Assembly (NCBI GenBank): GCA_013824645.1
Contig: PNOF01000001.1
Coordinates: 1-64,000 of the forward strand
DNA from: Syntrophus sp. (in: bacteria)
GTDB taxonomy: Bacteria > Desulfobacterota > Syntrophorhabdia > Syntrophorhabdales > Syntrophorhabdaceae
Direction of reading: 5' to 3'
DNA length: 64,000 nucleotides
Positions 9,793-62,354 of this stretch are shown here, piece by piece; the first letter of the stretch is position 1; each line of letters starts with the position of its first letter. A program made the translations under genes and the position numbers. The notes beneath the pieces were generated by a model. That model ran no database searches. It had not been told where the DNA came from and worked only from the letters and a program-made list of their open reading frames with translations.

Positions 9793-10604
9793 ATATTTAC
9801 CTTCTTTACGGCGCCCTCATTCTTTACCTTGCATCAACATCGTTGTATCTGTTTATTCTCATAACAAATAAAACAAAGATGGAAAAGGTTGCCCATTATA
9901 TGCTCATACTCGGGTGTTTCGTCCATCTGCTTTCCCTCATTGTGCGGTATTTTCAGGCAGGTTATGCGCCGATCACAAACCTCCATGAGTCTCTCTCCTT
10001 CCTTGCGTTCTGTATAGCCGGCTTTTTTCTCTATCTCAAGAAAATCTATAAGATTCAGTCCATGGGAATCATAATCCTGCCTCTGCTCTCGTTGCTCCTC
10101 ATCCTGGCCCTCGCACACCCCGCAGAGATAAAGCCACTCCCTCCTGCTCTGAAAAGCTGGTGGTTGCCGATCCATACGGTATTCATCTTTCTCGGCAATG
10201 CAATTTTTTTCGTTGCCTTCTTTGTTTCAATACTCTATCTCATCATTGAAAGAGGAATCAAAAAGAAAAAAAAACTGACCTTTTCCGAAAAACTTCCTTC
10301 CCTCGATACTCTCGACAGGGTTAACTACAAATGTATGTCCTGCGGTTTCCCCTTTTTGACCATTGGTATTATCACCGGTTCAATCTGGGCAGGATTAGCC
10401 TGGGGGTCACACTGGAACTGGGACCCGAAAGAAACCTGGTCGCTTATTACATGGATCGTATATGCCATCCTGATCCATAACAGACTCACTATCGGTTGGC
10501 GGGGAAGGAAAACAGCTTACATGATGATACTGGGCTTCCTTTTTATACTCTTCACCTTTCTGGGGGTGAATTTTCTCATGAAAGGACTCCATTCTTATGT
10601 TTAA
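9789..10604 (+). CDS. CcsA/HemX-like cytochrome c assembly membrane protein
   Basis: 271 residues with about eight membrane spans. The tryptophan-rich heme-handling motif is WGSHWNWDPKETWSLITW near residue 210, with His at nearby periplasmic loops. CcsA/CcsB-type proteins present heme to apocytochromes on the outer face of the inner membrane. Homologues placed beside hemA are called HemX and may instead tune glutamyl-tRNA reductase. Context (siroheme gene upstream, hemA downstream) keeps both readings open. The ATG overlaps the previous stop by 4 bp (ATGA). Confidence 0.85.
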   Translation: MNIYLLYGALILYLASTSLYLFILITNKTKMEKVAHYMLILGCFVHLLSLIVRYFQAGYAPITNLHESLSFLAFCIAGFFLYLKKIYKIQSMGIIILPLLSLLLILALAHPAEIKPLPPALKSWWLPIHTVFIFLGNAIFFVAFFVSILYLIIERGIKKKKKLTFSEKLPSLDTLDRVNYKCMSCGFPFLTIGIITGSIWAGLAWGSHWNWDPKETWSLITWIVYAILIHNRLTIGWRGRKTAYMMILGFLFILFTFLGVNFLMKGLHSYV

Positions 10605-34321: not shown

Positions 34322-35707
34322 TCATATCACTTCCAGATCCGCATGGAGCGCGCCGGAGGCTTTGATGGTCTGGAGGATGGTAATAATATCCCTCGTGGAA
34401 ACCCCTGTCGCATTTAATGCCTGGACCAATTCCCTGATCGATACACCGCCTTCCATCATATACCACCGTCCCTTTTCTTCTTCCACTCTAATAGTGGTAT
34501 CAGGTGTTACCACCGTTTCGCCTTTTGCAAAGGGCAGAGGCTGGCTTACCTTCTGGTCCTCTTTGATCTGAATACTCAGATTTCCATGAGAGATGGCAAC
34601 CGTTGAAATTTTTACGTTTTCACCGATAACAACGGTGCCTGTTTTTTCGTCAACCACAATTCGTGCAAGGAGATCGGGCTTGACATCAAGATTTTCCACT
34701 ATAGAGAGAAATTTAACCGGATTGGCCTTCATATCACCAGGCAGGTTGACAGTAACTGTCCCGCCGTCTTTCGCATATGAGGAACCCGCAAATATATCGT
34801 TAATACGTTCGGCAACCCTTCTCGCTGTCGTAAAATCGGGGTCCTTCAGTGCAATCATTATCACATCTGTCCGTAAACTTTCATAGGATATTTCCCGTTC
34901 TATCGAAGCTCCATTGGCAATTCTGCCCACAGTAGGATGGTTCTTCTGAACAGTAGCGCCCTGGCCGCTTGCCAGATAACCGCCGGTCACGATAGGCCCC
35001 TGGGCAATTGCATAGGTTTCCCCATCGGCTCCCCTTAACTGAGTGAGCATAAGGACCCCGCCTTCAAGACTCTTTGCATCACCTATAGATGATACGGTCA
35101 CATCTATCTTATTGCCGACCTTCGCAAAAGGAGGCAGATTAGCTGTAACCATTACCCCTGCTATGTTATTGACTTTTGTCGCCCTGGGGTCCACCTTTAT
35201 ACCGAGGGTTTCAAGCATATTGGCAAGACTCTGGTTTGTAAAAAGGGTATTTGTTTTGTCGCCTGTTCCATTGAGTCCTACGATAAGACCATATCCGATA
35301 AGCTGATTGGTCCTCACTCCGTTTATATAGCCCAGTTCTTTTATCCGTGCCGCATATGCAGGATGAATGAGAGCGCCTGCACAGAACATCAAAACAAAAA
35401 ATATAACAGGAAAGACCCTGGCGATGATCTTTGATTTTGTCTTCTGATTCAGCGTGAACCGCTTAATGGCGTTTTGTATCTCCCCGCCTTCTTCATCTCT
35501 CATCTTCTGCCTTTCAATTTCCCTCTTCCCTCTTCCCTCTTCCCTCTTCCCTCTTCCCTCTTCCCTCTTCCCTCTTCCCTCTTCCCTCTTCCCTCTTCCC
35601 TCTACATCCTGTGCTTCACCTTCTATGCTCTCCTGCAGCACAACATATCGGCACTCGCCGCTTGTCTTTGGTTCGCCTTTCTTAATTCTTAATTCTCCAT
35701 TTTTCAT
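34322..35707 (-). CDS. flgI: Flagellar P-ring protein FlgI with repeat-bearing 5' extension
   Basis: The mature P-ring protein is canonical: ARIKELGYINGVRTNQLIG, GLNGTGDKT, ending in IITILQTIKASGALHADLEV. It is preceded by a signal peptide (VIFFVLMFCAGALIHPAYA). The ATG at 35707 follows the flgH stop by 10 nt with GAGGG 7 nt upstream, so translation probably begins there. This gives 461 residues, about 90 more than usual, including four EGRGKRE heptapeptides encoded by 12 units of a 7-bp repeat. An ATG at 35503, just past the repeat, gives a 393-residue precursor of more normal size but has only a weak AAAGG. In either case the repeat controls frame or spacing at the start of flgI. Confidence 0.9.
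   Translation of the reverse strand: MKNGELRIKKGEPKTSGECRYVVLQESIEGEAQDVEGRGKREEGRGKREEGRGKREEGRGKREIERQKMRDEEGGEIQNAIKRFTLNQKTKSKIIARVFPVIFFVLMFCAGALIHPAYAARIKELGYINGVRTNQLIGYGLIVGLNGTGDKTNTLFTNQSLANMLETLGIKVDPRATKVNNIAGVMVTANLPPFAKVGNKIDVTVSSIGDAKSLEGGVLMLTQLRGADGETYAIAQGPIVTGGYLASGQGATVQKNHPTVGRIANGASIEREISYESLRTDVIMIALKDPDFTTARRVAERINDIFAGSSYAKDGGTVTVNLPGDMKANPVKFLSIVENLDVKPDLLARIVVDEKTGTVVIGENVKISTVAISHGNLSIQIKEDQKVSQPLPFAKGETVVTPDTTIRVEEEKGRWYMMEGGVSIRELVQALNATGVSTRDIITILQTIKASGALHADLEVI
35519..35602. repeat. 12 perfect copies of TTCCCTC
   Basis: An 84-bp uninterrupted tandem array of a 7-bp unit (GAGGGAA on the flgI coding strand). It lies between the two possible flgI starts. Loss or gain of one unit shifts the frame when reading from 35707. 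Confidence 0.95.
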
Positions 35708-35717
35708 AGCCTCACCC

Positions 35718-36419
35718 TCAGAACGGCCAGAACCGATCCATCCACCTGGCAAGCCATCCAGGCTCCTGTTTTTCTCCAATAACCCCGATACCCGTATAGA
35801 TAACTTTTGCATCGGCGACCTGCGTGGAAAGAATAGTGTTGTCATAGGCAATATCTCTGGGCCTTATGATGCCCTGAAGGAGTATCTCTTTCCTCTCACT
35901 GTTGACATTGATCTCTCTTTTGCCTTCTATGGCAAGGTTACCGCTGGGCATAACATCAACAATCCGTGCAGTGATCGTAGCGCTCAGAGAACCGGTACGT
36001 GTCGTTTCTCCGTCCCCTGAGAAATCATTCTTTGTACTGGCGCTAATCATTTTGCTCAGGTCAATACTGGAGGGTATCTTATTGGTCTCCAATCCAAGGA
36101 GGTGGGGAATACCGGTATTAATATCAGAAGCCCTCTTGGTACCCGTAGTTGCCTTTTCGGAAGCCTGGGAAACTTCCACAATCTTCACGGTAATAATATC
36201 TCCGACAAAACGGGCCCGCTGGTCCCCGAAAAACGTATTCGTTGTGCTTACGCCTTTCCAGATGGAGCCCGGTTTCGGATCCACTACCGGTTTAGCGAGC
36301 CTATGGGTATTATCAATAACAAAGGGTTCGTCTTTTATGCGCGAGTGCTGAGGTATCTGGCAGGCGGAAAAGAAAACACATAAAGCAAAAAGCAGAAAGA
36401 CAATTCGTAACATCTTCAT
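35718..36419 (-). CDS. flgH: Flagellar L-ring lipoprotein FlgH
   Basis: About 233 residues. Lipoprotein signal MLRIVFLLFALCVFFSAC with the lipobox Cys, then FlgH motifs: GSIWKG, FGDQRARFVGDIITVKIVE, FSGDGETTRTGSL and LSTQVADAKVIYTG. It forms the outer-membrane ring. ATG 36419 has AGGAG at a spacing of 9; ATG 36428 sits too close to that site. It follows the flgA stop within 15 bp. Confidence 0.94.
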   Translation of the reverse strand: MKMLRIVFLLFALCVFFSACQIPQHSRIKDEPFVIDNTHRLAKPVVDPKPGSIWKGVSTTNTFFGDQRARFVGDIITVKIVEVSQASEKATTGTKRASDINTGIPHLLGLETNKIPSSIDLSKMISASTKNDFSGDGETTRTGSLSATITARIVDVMPSGNLAIEGKREINVNSERKEILLQGIIRPRDIAYDNTILSTQVADAKVIYTGIGVIGEKQEPGWLARWMDRFWPF

Positions 36420-36431
36420 AAGATCCATCTC

Positions 36432-37226
36432 CTAAAAATCTACCGTTACAGCATTGTTCGCAGTAACACGTCCTGTAATTTCCCTGCCGGAAGATATATT
36501 TTTTACCCTTACCATATCTCCCATCCTGCCTTTATCAACCATTTTTCCTTTCAACTGTATGAGAAGCCTTTTGTTCTCGGCAATAATGTTTACGACTTCC
36601 CCCCTCTGGACGACCACAGGCTCCTCCAGCATCTGATTTGTCATAATGGTATTGGTTGGGACATCCCTTTTCAGGACTTTTCCGATCACGTCTTCAATGG
36701 AAACCGGGTATTCAGCGCCCCTCCCATTCATGTATGTTTCTTTGACAAAAATATCTCTCTTGCCAAGGATAGTATCTTTTTTACCGGCCTCTTTGAGCAC
36801 AAAGAGTTTTCTCTTTGTAAATATCCTGAAGGGAACCTGAACATTTTTGCTCCTGCCGGCGCCGGTATCTAATTCAACCGTGCAGATACCATCGCCATTT
36901 ACATCAGGAATCTTTATGAAGGTTATATTGTTCACCTTAACCTTTTCTTTCAATTTATTTGGCATACTATTCAACCGCACCTGTACGTCATCGCCCGGAT
37001 TGTACACCTCTTTGACAAACTGGATAATCTTTGCTTCGGTGGCGGAATATTCGGCGGCGTGAGCAACGGAAGGTGAAAGGTGAAAGGTGAAAGGTGAAAG
37101 GTAAAGGATGCATACCAGCAGGGTACAAACTAAAGGGCGATATCCTATAGCCTTTTCAGATTCTCGTACCTTGTACCTTGTACCTTGTACCTTTAACCTT
37201 TTACCTTGTACCTTGCACCTTATCAC
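36432..37226 (-). CDS. flgA: P-ring assembly chaperone FlgA with repeats in its signal region
   Basis: 264 residues. The mature part matches FlgA/SAF: an IFTKRKLFVLKEAGKKD strand, DVPTNTIMTNQML, VVVQRGEVVNIIAENKRLL, and GRMGDMVRVKNISSGREITG. FlgA guides FlgI polymerisation in the periplasm. The start is GTG 37226, with GAGGAG 6 nt upstream and overlapping the flgG stop. No other in-frame start occurs before the signal peptide. Two heptanucleotide arrays lie in this coding segment: the first encodes the basic KVQG-rich N-region, the second encodes the LSPFTFHLSPSV part of the signal peptide. A change of one unit would disrupt the mature protein. Confidence 0.9.
   Translation of the reverse strand: MIRCKVQGKRLKVQGTRYKVRESEKAIGYRPLVCTLLVCILYLSPFTFHLSPSVAHAAEYSATEAKIIQFVKEVYNPGDDVQVRLNSMPNKLKEKVKVNNITFIKIPDVNGDGICTVELDTGAGRSKNVQVPFRIFTKRKLFVLKEAGKKDTILGKRDIFVKETYMNGRGAEYPVSIEDVIGKVLKRDVPTNTIMTNQMLEEPVVVQRGEVVNIIAENKRLLIQLKGKMVDKGRMGDMVRVKNISSGREITGRVTANNAVTVDF
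37070..37104. repeat. AAGGTGA heptamer array in flgA signal peptide
   Basis: Four perfect AAGGTGA units (37070-37097) and one with a single change. On the coding strand it reads as TCACCTT units and encodes the end of the hydrophobic core and the cleavage region of the FlgA signal peptide. Confidence 0.9.
37164..37219. repeat. TTGTACC heptamer array at the flgA start
   Basis: Eight 7-bp units, four of them exact TTGTACC (three consecutive at 37171-37191). It begins 7 bp after the GTG start of flgA, within the translated N-region. Confidence 0.88.
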
Positions 37227-37228
37227 CG

Positions 37229-38017
37229 CTATCTCCTCAAACTATTCGCCATCTGCAACATTTCATCTGCGGCCTGAATCGCCTTCGAATTTACTTCGTA
37301 AGCCCTCTGGCCGACAATGAGGTTGATCATTTCCTGCATAATATTGACATTCGACCCTTCCAGATATCCCTGGAGCATCGTACCGATACCGTTTTGTCCG
37401 GGATTGCCCGTCGTCGCTGTACCACTGGCGTCGGTCTGCAGGAAAAGGTTTTTTCCCATGGCCCTGAGTCCCGCCGAATTCGGAAAAATAGCCAGTTCGA
37501 GCCTGCCTATCTGCTGGGGTGTTGTCTGACCCTGGATCTGCGCCGATATGCTTCCATCTGATTCGATAGATACGTTCAGTGTCCTGGCAGGTATAGTAAG
37601 GCTTGGCTCGATAGGATAGCCGTCAGTGGTAACGATCCTTCCTTCGGCGTCGCTCTTTAATGCGCCCGCCCTCGTGTACGCTTTCTCACCGGAAGGCAGC
37701 GTGACCTGCAGGAAACCGTTTCCCTCAATGGCAATATCGAGTTCGTTTTCAGTCTTTTGATAATCGCCCTGCTGGAATATCTTCTGCACCGACGACAACA
37801 TGGCCCCGAGACCTATCTGTACACCGGTCGGCACTGTATTACCTCCGTCTGTTTTTGCGCCCTGAAGCCGGAGTGTCTGGTACATGAGGTCCTGAAAATC
37901 GGCCCGGCTCCTTTTATAACCATTGGTATTTACGTTCGCAATATTATTTGCAATAACGTCAAGATTTACCTGCTGCACATTCATACCGGAAGCAGATGAC
38001 CATAAAGCCCTTATCAT
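37229..38017 (-). CDS. flgG: Distal rod protein FlgG
   Basis: 262 residues. N-terminal rod motif MIRALWSSASGMNVQQVNLD and NIANVNTNGYKRSRADFQDLMYQ; central QKIFQQGDYQKTENELDIAIEGNGFLQV; C-terminal LEGSNVNIMQEMINLIVGQRAYE and the usual ADEMLQMANSLR end. It builds the distal rod inside the P- and L-rings. Starts 9 bp after flgF. Confidence 0.96.
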   Translation of the reverse strand: MIRALWSSASGMNVQQVNLDVIANNIANVNTNGYKRSRADFQDLMYQTLRLQGAKTDGGNTVPTGVQIGLGAMLSSVQKIFQQGDYQKTENELDIAIEGNGFLQVTLPSGEKAYTRAGALKSDAEGRIVTTDGYPIEPSLTIPARTLNVSIESDGSISAQIQGQTTPQQIGRLELAIFPNSAGLRAMGKNLFLQTDASGTATTGNPGQNGIGTMLQGYLEGSNVNIMQEMINLIVGQRAYEVNSKAIQAADEMLQMANSLRR

Positions 38018-38026
38018 ATATCCCTC

Positions 38027-38758
38027 CTAAAACTTTCCTAATTCTACCAGTTTGGCGTTCATATCACTGAACATCTGGTCAACCTTCGTGTAACACTCAA
38101 AAGCACGCATCGTATGAATCATCTCCACCATTTCCCGAAAAATATTTACGTTGGAACCTTCGTATGCACCCTGGCGAATGGCATATAGATCCGGAACAAT
38201 CTCGGGTTCAGCCTTGTTTTCATTGGCAAAAAGGCTCTTTCCCACCGGCTTCAACCCCCTCTTATCCTTGAAATCTACAATCTTTACCTTGTCCACAAGA
38301 TCTTTTCCAAGAAAGATGGAACCGTCAGTTTCTATGAGCACCTCTTTCCCGTCCGTTGTGTCAATGGTAATATCTCCGCCGCTTCCCTGTACAGGATCTC
38401 CGTTCATCGTCACAAGTCTGTTACTCTTATCGACGGTAAACTGACCGTTCCTCGTGTATAAATTCCCGTCTTTGCCCTGGATAACAAAGTACCCGTCGCC
38501 AACAATAGCCATATCGAAGGTGGCCCCGCTATCGACGATAGGTGCGTCAGAAAAGTCGATGAAGGTGTCATAAATACCGACATAGGCATTCTTCAGCTGC
38601 CCGCCGTCACCGGCTGCCTGCCCTGCAGTAGAAACCATACTGAATACCGGCTTCACGGCCTTGTACCCTGCAGTCAACGAATTGGCAATATTATTTGAGA
38701 TAATATCAAGTTTTTTCTCGTTTACGAATTTACCTGCTACGGTTACATAAAAGCTCAT
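38027..38758 (-). CDS. flgF: Proximal rod protein FlgF
   Basis: 243 residues, rod family: MSFYVTVAGKFVNEKKLDIISNN at the start, FDMAIVGDGYFVIQGKDGN in the centre, YEGSNVNIFREMVEMIHTMRAFE at the end. Slightly divergent from FlgG and placed just before it, which favours FlgF. No Shine-Dalgarno sequence precedes the ATG, and a sigma-54 box ends only 12 bp upstream, so the message may be nearly leaderless. Confidence 0.9.
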   Translation of the reverse strand: MSFYVTVAGKFVNEKKLDIISNNIANSLTAGYKAVKPVFSMVSTAGQAAGDGGQLKNAYVGIYDTFIDFSDAPIVDSGATFDMAIVGDGYFVIQGKDGNLYTRNGQFTVDKSNRLVTMNGDPVQGSGGDITIDTTDGKEVLIETDGSIFLGKDLVDKVKIVDFKDKRGLKPVGKSLFANENKAEPEIVPDLYAIRQGAYEGSNVNIFREMVEMIHTMRAFECYTKVDQMFSDMNAKLVELGKF

Positions 38759-38770
38759 GCATGGTAATGA

Positions 38771-38786
38771 TGCAATCGCCGTGCCA
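38771..38786 (-). promoter_or_regulatory. Sigma-54 promoter of flgF operon
   Basis: TGGCAC-GGCGA-TTGCA on the minus strand is a full consensus -24/-12 box with GG and GC 10 bp apart. The predicted start site (about 38760) lies 2 nt from the flgF ATG. It would drive flgF-G-A-H-I-J. Confidence 0.65.
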
Positions 38787-38794
38787 GTCAGTAA

Positions 38795-38921
38795 TAAATG
38801 GTAAATCGTGAATGGTCAAACCCGTGTCGACCAGATGATAAACCTGCTCCTTTACTATCACTGATAGCGATCAGCCTGTTTTACCGCTTACGATTTGCAA
38901 TTTACGATTTACGATTTACGA
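38795..38921. repeat. Inverted pair of TAAATCG-type heptamer arrays
   Basis: Three units TAAATGG-TAAATCG-TGAATGG read on the plus strand (38795-38815). Five units of the same family read on the minus strand (38887-38921, three of them exact TTTACGA on plus). The pair can fold back. A G9-A7 homopolymer pair follows at 38936-38951. Confidence 0.75.
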
Positions 38922-38971
38922 TTCGCGGGTTCTAAGGGGGGGGGAAAAAAATTCCTACATAGGCAAAATTT

Positions 38972-57304: not shown

Positions 57305-57916
57305 TCACTGTATAATGATGTCGGTTATATAAACCGCTCTCAATTCTTCTTCGTCCTTAAAGAGTGTCTTTAAGCTTGCCTGGACTTCACTTTTTATGGC
57401 GCTTCTCTGGCTCACATCCATGAGCGCCTCAGGGGCCTTTGCTCCTAATATTGACAATACTTTGTCCCTTATGACGGGCACCATTTTCTTTGCCTCTTCC
57501 ATGACCTTCGGGTCTTTCAGCTCTATCCCCAGGGTCACCTTTGCATACTTGGCCTGATTGCCGGACATATTAAACACAAAAGGTTCCAGCGCCAGAATAG
57601 GACCCAGGAGTTCCTTTTTCTTCTGCTCCTTGGCTTCTTTCTGCTCGCCCCCTTCCTGCTGTTCGCCTTCTGGCGGCTTTTTTCCAAAATACTTCTGCAT
57701 GATTTTGTTGCTGAAGGACATGATTTTACTGCTGAAGAAATAGTATCCCGCTCCCCCGCCTCCAAGAAAAATAACGATAAGGAGGAGGAACAGAATCAAC
57801 TTAATTTTGCTCTTTTTTTTGCCTTCTTCCGGCTGTTCAGAGGCCTCTTCCTTTTGTTTTTGTTTTTTTTCTTCCGGTTGTTTTTTTTCTTCCGGTTGCT
57901 TTTTCTCTTCAGCCAT
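57305..57916 (-). CDS. fliL: Basal body protein FliL
   Basis: 203 residues. The cytoplasmic N-terminus carries EEKKQP repeats (an 18-bp in-frame DNA repeat). One membrane span (IKLILFLLLIVIFLGGGGAGY) precedes a Glu/Lys-rich linker and the periplasmic FliL domain (LEPFVFNMSGNQAKYAKVTLGI ... LKTLFKDEEELRAVYITDIIIQ). It rings the stator and aids motor torque. GGAGGAA precedes the ATG. First gene of the 18-gene operon. Confidence 0.92.
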   Translation of the reverse strand: MAEEKKQPEEKKQPEEKKQKQKEEASEQPEEGKKKSKIKLILFLLLIVIFLGGGGAGYYFFSSKIMSFSNKIMQKYFGKKPPEGEQQEGGEQKEAKEQKKKELLGPILALEPFVFNMSGNQAKYAKVTLGIELKDPKVMEEAKKMVPVIRDKVLSILGAKAPEALMDVSQRSAIKSEVQASLKTLFKDEEELRAVYITDIIIQ

Positions 57917-62058: not shown

Positions 62059-62180
62059 AAACCTATTTATTTATTATCTCAGGTAGTTATAAATCAAGAG
62101 CATTCTTTTGAGATACGATTTCAAGGAATTAATTTCCCTGCTGGGAAAATATTTCCTACATCTCCTGTCTGCATATCATT

Positions 62181-62216
62181 GATTTGGGAATAGGATTTGA
62201 TTTGGGAATAGGATTT
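62181..62216. repeat. Two exact 18-bp tandem copies
   Basis: GATTTGGGAATAGGATTT twice in direct succession, then a decayed GGAATGAATGGGAATGG. In the gap between fliJ and fliK. Confidence 0.85.
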
Positions 62217-62354
62217 GGAATGAATGGGAATGGAGAGAGGACACCGAAAGAGCGGTTAACAAACATAATCTTTTTTGGAGACAATCAATATATGTTGGAA
62301 ACAGAAGGAACGGGGTTAAGATACTTCGGCAATCCAGGCAGAGCCGGATTGATA

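Follow-up and report, generated by a model that had tools for sequence, protein, structure and literature searches.

Heptanucleotide tandem arrays in the translated leader of flgA: a probable opa-like, frameshift-prone locus in Syntrophorhabdaceae

In the opa genes of Neisseria, CTCTT repeats are described in the coding region for the leader peptide, where the number of units sets the reading frame and switching occurs at about 1e-3 per generation (PMC3960869). Heptameric repeats are reported to be in excess in bacteria, with many arrays of a genome-typical unit, GGGAATC in Xanthomonas and GGGGATT in Nostoc, lying mainly in intergenic regions; the same account names flgA once among the repeat-connected genes of Xanthomonas and refers to Lin and Kussell for the enrichment of simple repeats near N-termini (as cited in PMC4692102). 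The TAACTGA repeats of Beggiatoaceae, Cyanobacteria and Bacteroidetes are located at the 5' ends of genes, just upstream of start codons, where they are thought to act in translation, and related strains differ in them by insertions and deletions in 7-nucleotide (nt) steps (PMC4679880). In the hmw promoters of Haemophilus influenzae, the number of heptamer units alters expression (PMC8262952). Here, we analyze a stretch of 64,000 nt (hereafter, the window; positions 1 to 64,000 of contig PNOF01000001.1, assembly GCA_013824645.1) from Syntrophus sp. of the family Syntrophorhabdaceae, and in particular its flgA gene, which carries two heptamer arrays inside the signal region; G000 denotes the genome that holds the window. 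Searches of open-access papers turned up no description of signal peptides made from heptamers, nor any of frameshift variation in flgA or flgI.

The flgA arrays are similar to the opa repeats in that a unit not divisible by 3 is situated within the leader coding region of a protein destined for export (PMC3960869). They differ from opa, a pentameric system with proven switching and a surface adhesin as its product, in that flgA has heptamers, two arrays, a P-ring chaperone as its product and putative switching. Unlike the heptamers of Xanthomonas and Nostoc, the arrays of this family stand in frame in leaders and have varied units; unlike the TAACTGA repeats, which precede start codons, those of flgA are very probably translated, as judged from sequence comparison. 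The hmw heptamers act through promoter strength, whereas the flgA arrays affect the reading frame. We consider it probable, at roughly two chances in three, that a slippage-prone family of dispersed heptamers has been exapted as the signal peptide of flgA, giving an opa-like locus that is prone to frameshifts.

FlgA serves in the periplasm as the chaperone of FlgI, the protein of the P ring. The gene assigned to it here (minus strand, 36432-37226; open reading frame (ORF) of 264 amino acids with a GTG start whose position is kept in relatives) is identified by its ChapFlgA domain (Pfam, E = 2.1e-25) and by its neighbours flgG, flgH and flgI. Codons 1-57 (37056-37226, minus strand) form the putative signal-peptide coding region on translation; the leader, MIRCKVQGKRLKVQGTRYKVRESEKAIGYRPLVCTLLVCILYLSPFTFHLSPSVAHA, holds both arrays and consists, by eye, of a basic n-region, a hydrophobic segment LVCTLLVCILYL and an A-H-A cleavage site. 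Array 1 (37166-37221, minus strand) comprises eight units of the AAGGTAC type and codes for the basic n-region as a KVQGTRY cycle; Tandem Repeats Finder gives 8.0 copies with 89% matches, and the exact-run scan finds an exact stretch only at 37166-37193, that is, four units. Array 2 (37070-37107, minus strand) comprises about five ACCTTTC units (5.6 copies, 96% matches, 3% insertions or deletions; exact stretch 37070-37102) and codes for the terminal portion of the hydrophobic segment plus the c-region as a TFHLSPF cycle. The original prediction of an eight-unit and a five-unit array, the second coding for part of the signal peptide itself, is borne out by Tandem Repeats Finder and by translation, with the refinements that four units of the first are exact and that the second supplies the end of a signal peptide recognized by eye. 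Both arrays, with a unit not divisible by 3, lie inside the open frame 36432-37226. When each was changed in silico by -2 to +2 units, FlgA was in frame in 1 of the 25 combinations, namely the present one; the further claim that each one-unit change frameshifts mature FlgA held for all 24 altered combinations, and a natural pair of relatives (G017 and G008, below) differs by one unit with loss of frame. Mutual compensation between the two arrays of G000 was rejected, as the frame was not regained in any of these 24 combinations, which cover changes of up to two units per array.

The location of the start codon carries the argument for translation. Two bases separate the flgG stop codon from the flgA GTG (37226-37224), and a GAGGAG ribosome-binding site, read directly from the sequence within the 3' end of flgG (37233-37238, minus strand), ends 6 nt upstream, as had been predicted; no other in-frame ATG, GTG or TTG precedes the mature part of FlgA. 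Most relatives have GGAGA at the site of this motif. Among 21 flagellar loci of the family, flgG is present in 20, and in 18 of these an in-frame flgA start lies 2-9 nt away, counted from the first nucleotide of the stop codon of flgG; of the other two, G003 has its start 167 nt from the flgG stop and G008 has no in-frame start. Because the start beside flgG is kept among relatives, the flgA arrays are very probably translated.

We propose that, in Syntrophorhabdaceae, dispersed heptanucleotide arrays build up in intergenic DNA and at the 5' ends of genes and that, in flgA, they would have been recruited into the coding frame to form part of the signal peptide. Since 7 and 3 have no common factor, an array encodes one repeating heptapeptide per strand in any frame. 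Purine-rich units would thereby supply a basic n-region, and pyrimidine-rich units a moderately hydrophobic stretch; the mean hydropathy is -1.4 for the KVQGTRY cycle from AAGGTAC and +0.7 for the TIHYSLF cycle from ACTATTC. Gain or loss of a unit would leave the character of the leader unchanged and place mature FlgA out of frame, and the locus would therefore work, in principle, like the leader repeats of Neisseria opa, as an ON/OFF device. Slippage as the mechanism, its reversibility and the loss of P-ring assembly in the OFF state are what we infer from this arrangement.

The comparison set consisted of 39 family genomes, 30 of them with flgA, and heptamer arrays were present in the flgA signal region of nine (G000, G008, G015, G017, G018, G022, G029, G031 and G033). 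The units include AAGGTAC/ACCTTTC, ACTATTC, GAGAGCA/GCTATCA, GAGAGCA/GCTCTCA, TCTGTCT, CAGCCAT and TCAGCTA. At a density of 50 arrays per Mb, arrays would be expected by chance in about 0.2 of the 29 other leaders, compared with the eight seen, in a hand estimate that ignores shared descent (at least three clades are involved). A single inherited array with point drift was rejected as the source, as units differ among kin: G022 has TCTGTCT whereas G008 and G017 of the same genus have ACTATTC, and four sets occur in genus g9. Of the nine loci, seven are in frame, one is out of frame (G008) and G022 is undecidable, its contig beginning inside the leader. Since seven of the eight decidable loci are in frame, compared with one in three if the frame were random, selection likely keeps the flgA frame ON.

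The out-of-frame allele belongs to G008, which forms a pair of sister species in one genus with G017. Their mature flgA sequences share 96.5% identity at the DNA level and 98% at the protein level, with dN 0.009, dS 0.148 and dN/dS of about 0.06, values which indicate that the mature part in G008 is still under purifying selection. The leader array of G017 has 4.4 ACTATTC units with an ATG in frame, and that of G008 has 3.4 units, the alignment gap between the two being exactly one ACTATTC. At the matching place in G008, a GTG runs for 48 codons to a stop; no ATG, GTG or TTG exists in the mature-flgA frame, although a rare start such as ATT is possible. Natural alleles in frame and out of frame are thus found between species only. 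Three orthologous array-bearing genes could be paired between the two genomes (flgA, flgI and a TPM-domain gene), and in flgI they differ by 21 nt of a CAGAAGA array, three units, with the frame kept. At the G008 flgG-flgA junction (L142, around 9942-9960), a 16-nt insertion of an octamer (AAAAAGGT) repeat shifts the flgA start position off the flgG stop.

These heptamers form a dispersed class of repeats. We sampled 464 kilobases (kb) of G000, consisting of the window and 20 stretches of its own genome, with one base-shuffled copy as the control. Exact period-7 runs of at least 10 matches numbered 13 in the sample and 0 in the shuffled copy; when at least 14 matches were required, period 7 accounted for eight runs and every other period up to 24 for two at most. 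Period 7 is thus the sole clearly over-represented short tandem period in the sample. In the window, at 12 or more matches, there are four exact period-7 runs, all in 35519-38923; other basic periods between 2 and 15 gave no such run. The exact-run scan lists, within this span, an element at 38900-38923 (strand not given). In the background of G018, period 7 ranks top jointly with period 14; the excess is less clear in G017, and G016 and G001 showed none. Array density varies among genomes, with eight arrays in the 400 kb sampled from G000 beyond the window, three in 65 kb from G017, four in 85 kb from G018, one in 100 kb from G016 and none in 43 kb from G001.

The 13 sampled arrays of G000 are intergenic (eight) or at the 5' end of an ORF (five, counting the flgI array, which longest-ORF labelling had called internal). 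The six of G017 and seven of G018, flagellar stretches included, are intergenic, N-terminal or, in one case, at a gene end, and no sampled array lies truly within a gene body in any of these three genomes. Pattern scans of the 39 family genomes found AAGGTNN three times in tandem in 17 (in G000 at flgA and on three other contigs), ACTATTC in six and TCAGCTA in seven, the same unit occurring at several separate places of one genome. A control with reversed patterns gave zero for ACTATTC only; AAGGTNN matched backwards in several genomes, mainly of genus g5, and TCAGCTA in G011 and G019. The patterns that match backwards are heptamers too and may reflect the same phenomenon with other units, the control not being a clean one. 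The longest array of the ACTATTC class, with 8.4 units, lies between two genes of G017 (L262, 1589-1647). Read in the AGTGAAT orientation, the unit contains stop codons; arrays of this kind extend over gene 3' ends (L217 and L220), where they may supply stops.

The contexts of all 32 ACTATTC places from the three-unit scan were inspected, and nine of the arrays lie in leaders: those of flgA in G015, G017 and G008 (out of frame), NfeD-like genes in G015 and G004, TPM-domain-like genes in G008 and G017, and an RND-adaptor-like lipoprotein and a YjbH-like protein in G008. The remaining places are intergenic or at gene ends, one of them (G037) with an ambiguous start. These leaders were located through ORF calls and are in frame by construction, and so they are uninformative on ON/OFF rates. 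Other heptamers occupy orthologous leaders: the TPM-domain gene has TTCCACC in G010 and TATTCAA in G015, and the RND adaptor has CTGTTCG in G010. No arrays were found at these orthologous leaders in G018, nor, for NfeD and RND, in some other genomes. In G017, a predicted exported protein (L267, 1605-3056) has a long n-region resembling heptamer peptides (SRVQGQKSRVQVQG, NSKLKTQN) and adjoins an AGTGAAT array. A flagella-specific function of the arrays was rejected, as the same units sit in leaders of unrelated exported proteins; the flgA arrays exemplify something more general, the conversion of dispersed heptamers into leader peptides.

Signal peptides evolve rapidly, and the origin of new ones is an open question. 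With close orthologues whose leaders are made of different heptamers, one can trace directly how tandem repeats give rise to new leader parts and supplant old ones. Heptamers, being frame-independent in the peptide yet frame-breaking downstream, could tie leader evolution to stochastic loss of export. We regard with considerable doubt the broader proposal that genome-specific heptamers serve as ready-made, frame-independent signal-peptide modules. Stochastic frameshifting would then control the export of a set of envelope proteins, the flagellar ones being the products of flgA and flgI, and G008 would represent a FlgA-OFF state.

Several points weigh against exaptation of a slippage-prone heptamer family. 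The original prediction held that orthologues lacking the arrays and having a clear downstream start would refute its own reading of flgA; signal-region arrays are indeed lacking in 21 of the 30 flgA-bearing family genomes, as in the genus-mate G001, yet in those compared the start stays beside flgG rather than downstream. Beyond the family, 0 of six flgA-bearing order-level genomes (G045, G039 and G041-G044) have flgA arrays. Variation in array length is known between species only, and, since G008 and G017 have equally long arrays in the TPM-domain leader, turnover is not extreme. The genomes are all drafts, assembled mostly from metagenomes, signal peptides were judged by eye, and the G008 allele rests on one assembly, the public contig copy being probably the same one.

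The gene flgI (34322-35707, minus strand; Pfam FlgI) likely starts at ATG 35707 according to the table of starts and frames, and its N-terminal region contains an array of 12 exact AGAGGGA units (35519-35603, minus strand), across which the frame from this ATG is kept only for changes of three units, as well as a short AGAATTA array of 2.6 units found in the repeat scan (35679-35696, minus strand). The upstream start is favoured by G001 of the same genus, in whose flgI the N-terminal extension is long, open and free of arrays; an in-frame ATG at 35503 lies just past the array. FlgI of both genus g1 genomes (34322-35707 of the window; L150 of G001) appears to carry an N-terminal extension of unusual length ahead of a signal-like segment. 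The suggestion that both P-ring products could be switched independently is weak: the number of units in the 12-unit array decides the frame when reading begins at ATG 35707, but the alternative start follows the array.

The best-surviving alternative, which we hold as tentative, is that flgA is a selected phase-variation (contingency) locus, in which the arrays are kept because frequent, reversible ON/OFF switching of FlgA, and perhaps of FlgI, yields mixtures of flagellate and non-flagellate cells. Consistent with such a locus are the repeated occurrence of flgA arrays with differing units, the flgI arrays of G000, G017, G008 and G015, the out-of-frame G008 allele with its intact mature gene and the OFF outcome of each one-unit change in G000. 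Yet seven of the eight decidable flgA loci are ON, arrays lie equally between genes and in leaders of proteins that have no evident benefit from switching, 3-5 exact units are few in comparison with known switches, and flgI has a fallback start. From these comparisons, the frame is mostly kept ON, and selected phase variation is no more than plausible. Known flagellar switches include homopolymer tracts and invertible DNA; if the arrays are prone to slippage, the P-ring chaperone would be a different route to mixtures of motile and non-motile cells.

That the G008 allele is an assembly or binning error seems unlikely to us. It comes from a single metagenome assembly, and repeats are prone to assembly errors, but the array is 24 bp, far below the usual read length, and the gap relative to G017 is exactly one unit with clean flanks. 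Still less probable is that the two partly complementary arrays form a messenger RNA hairpin over the flgA start, the number of units tuning its effect on translation. In each of four leaders examined for this, 5-6 of the 7 positions of unit 1 agree with the reverse complement of unit 2, agreement at five or more being seen in about 9% of random pairs, and predicted folding exceeds that of shuffled sequences in G000 (z -4.5), G029 (z -6.6) and G033 (z -4.1). The excess is modest in G017 (z -1.8), G008 (z -1.4) and G015 (z -2.3), however, and none exists in G018 or G031 (z -0.3 in both), which leaves a common hairpin function of the arrays unsupported; complementarity can also stem from the peptide's need for purine followed by pyrimidine and from the use of a single unit dialect in both orientations. 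A hairpin is possible as a modifier rather than a common function. We give hardly any credence to the arrays being untranslated or neutral clutter ahead of a downstream FlgA start, which a very long leader (57 codons by eye) and an ATG at 37113 in another frame might suggest, since GTG 37226 is the sole in-frame start before the mature part and the start beside flgG is kept in relatives with and without arrays.

The gene order on the minus strand of the window is flgG-flgA-flgH-flgI (ORFs and Pfam), with flgH at 35718-36428 (minus strand; Pfam FlgH) and the flgG-like rod gene at 37229-38017 (minus strand; Pfam rod/hook domains). Tandem Repeats Finder also reports two 18-bp tandem repeats in the window, at 57860-57910 (2.8 copies) and 62179-62217 (2.2 copies).
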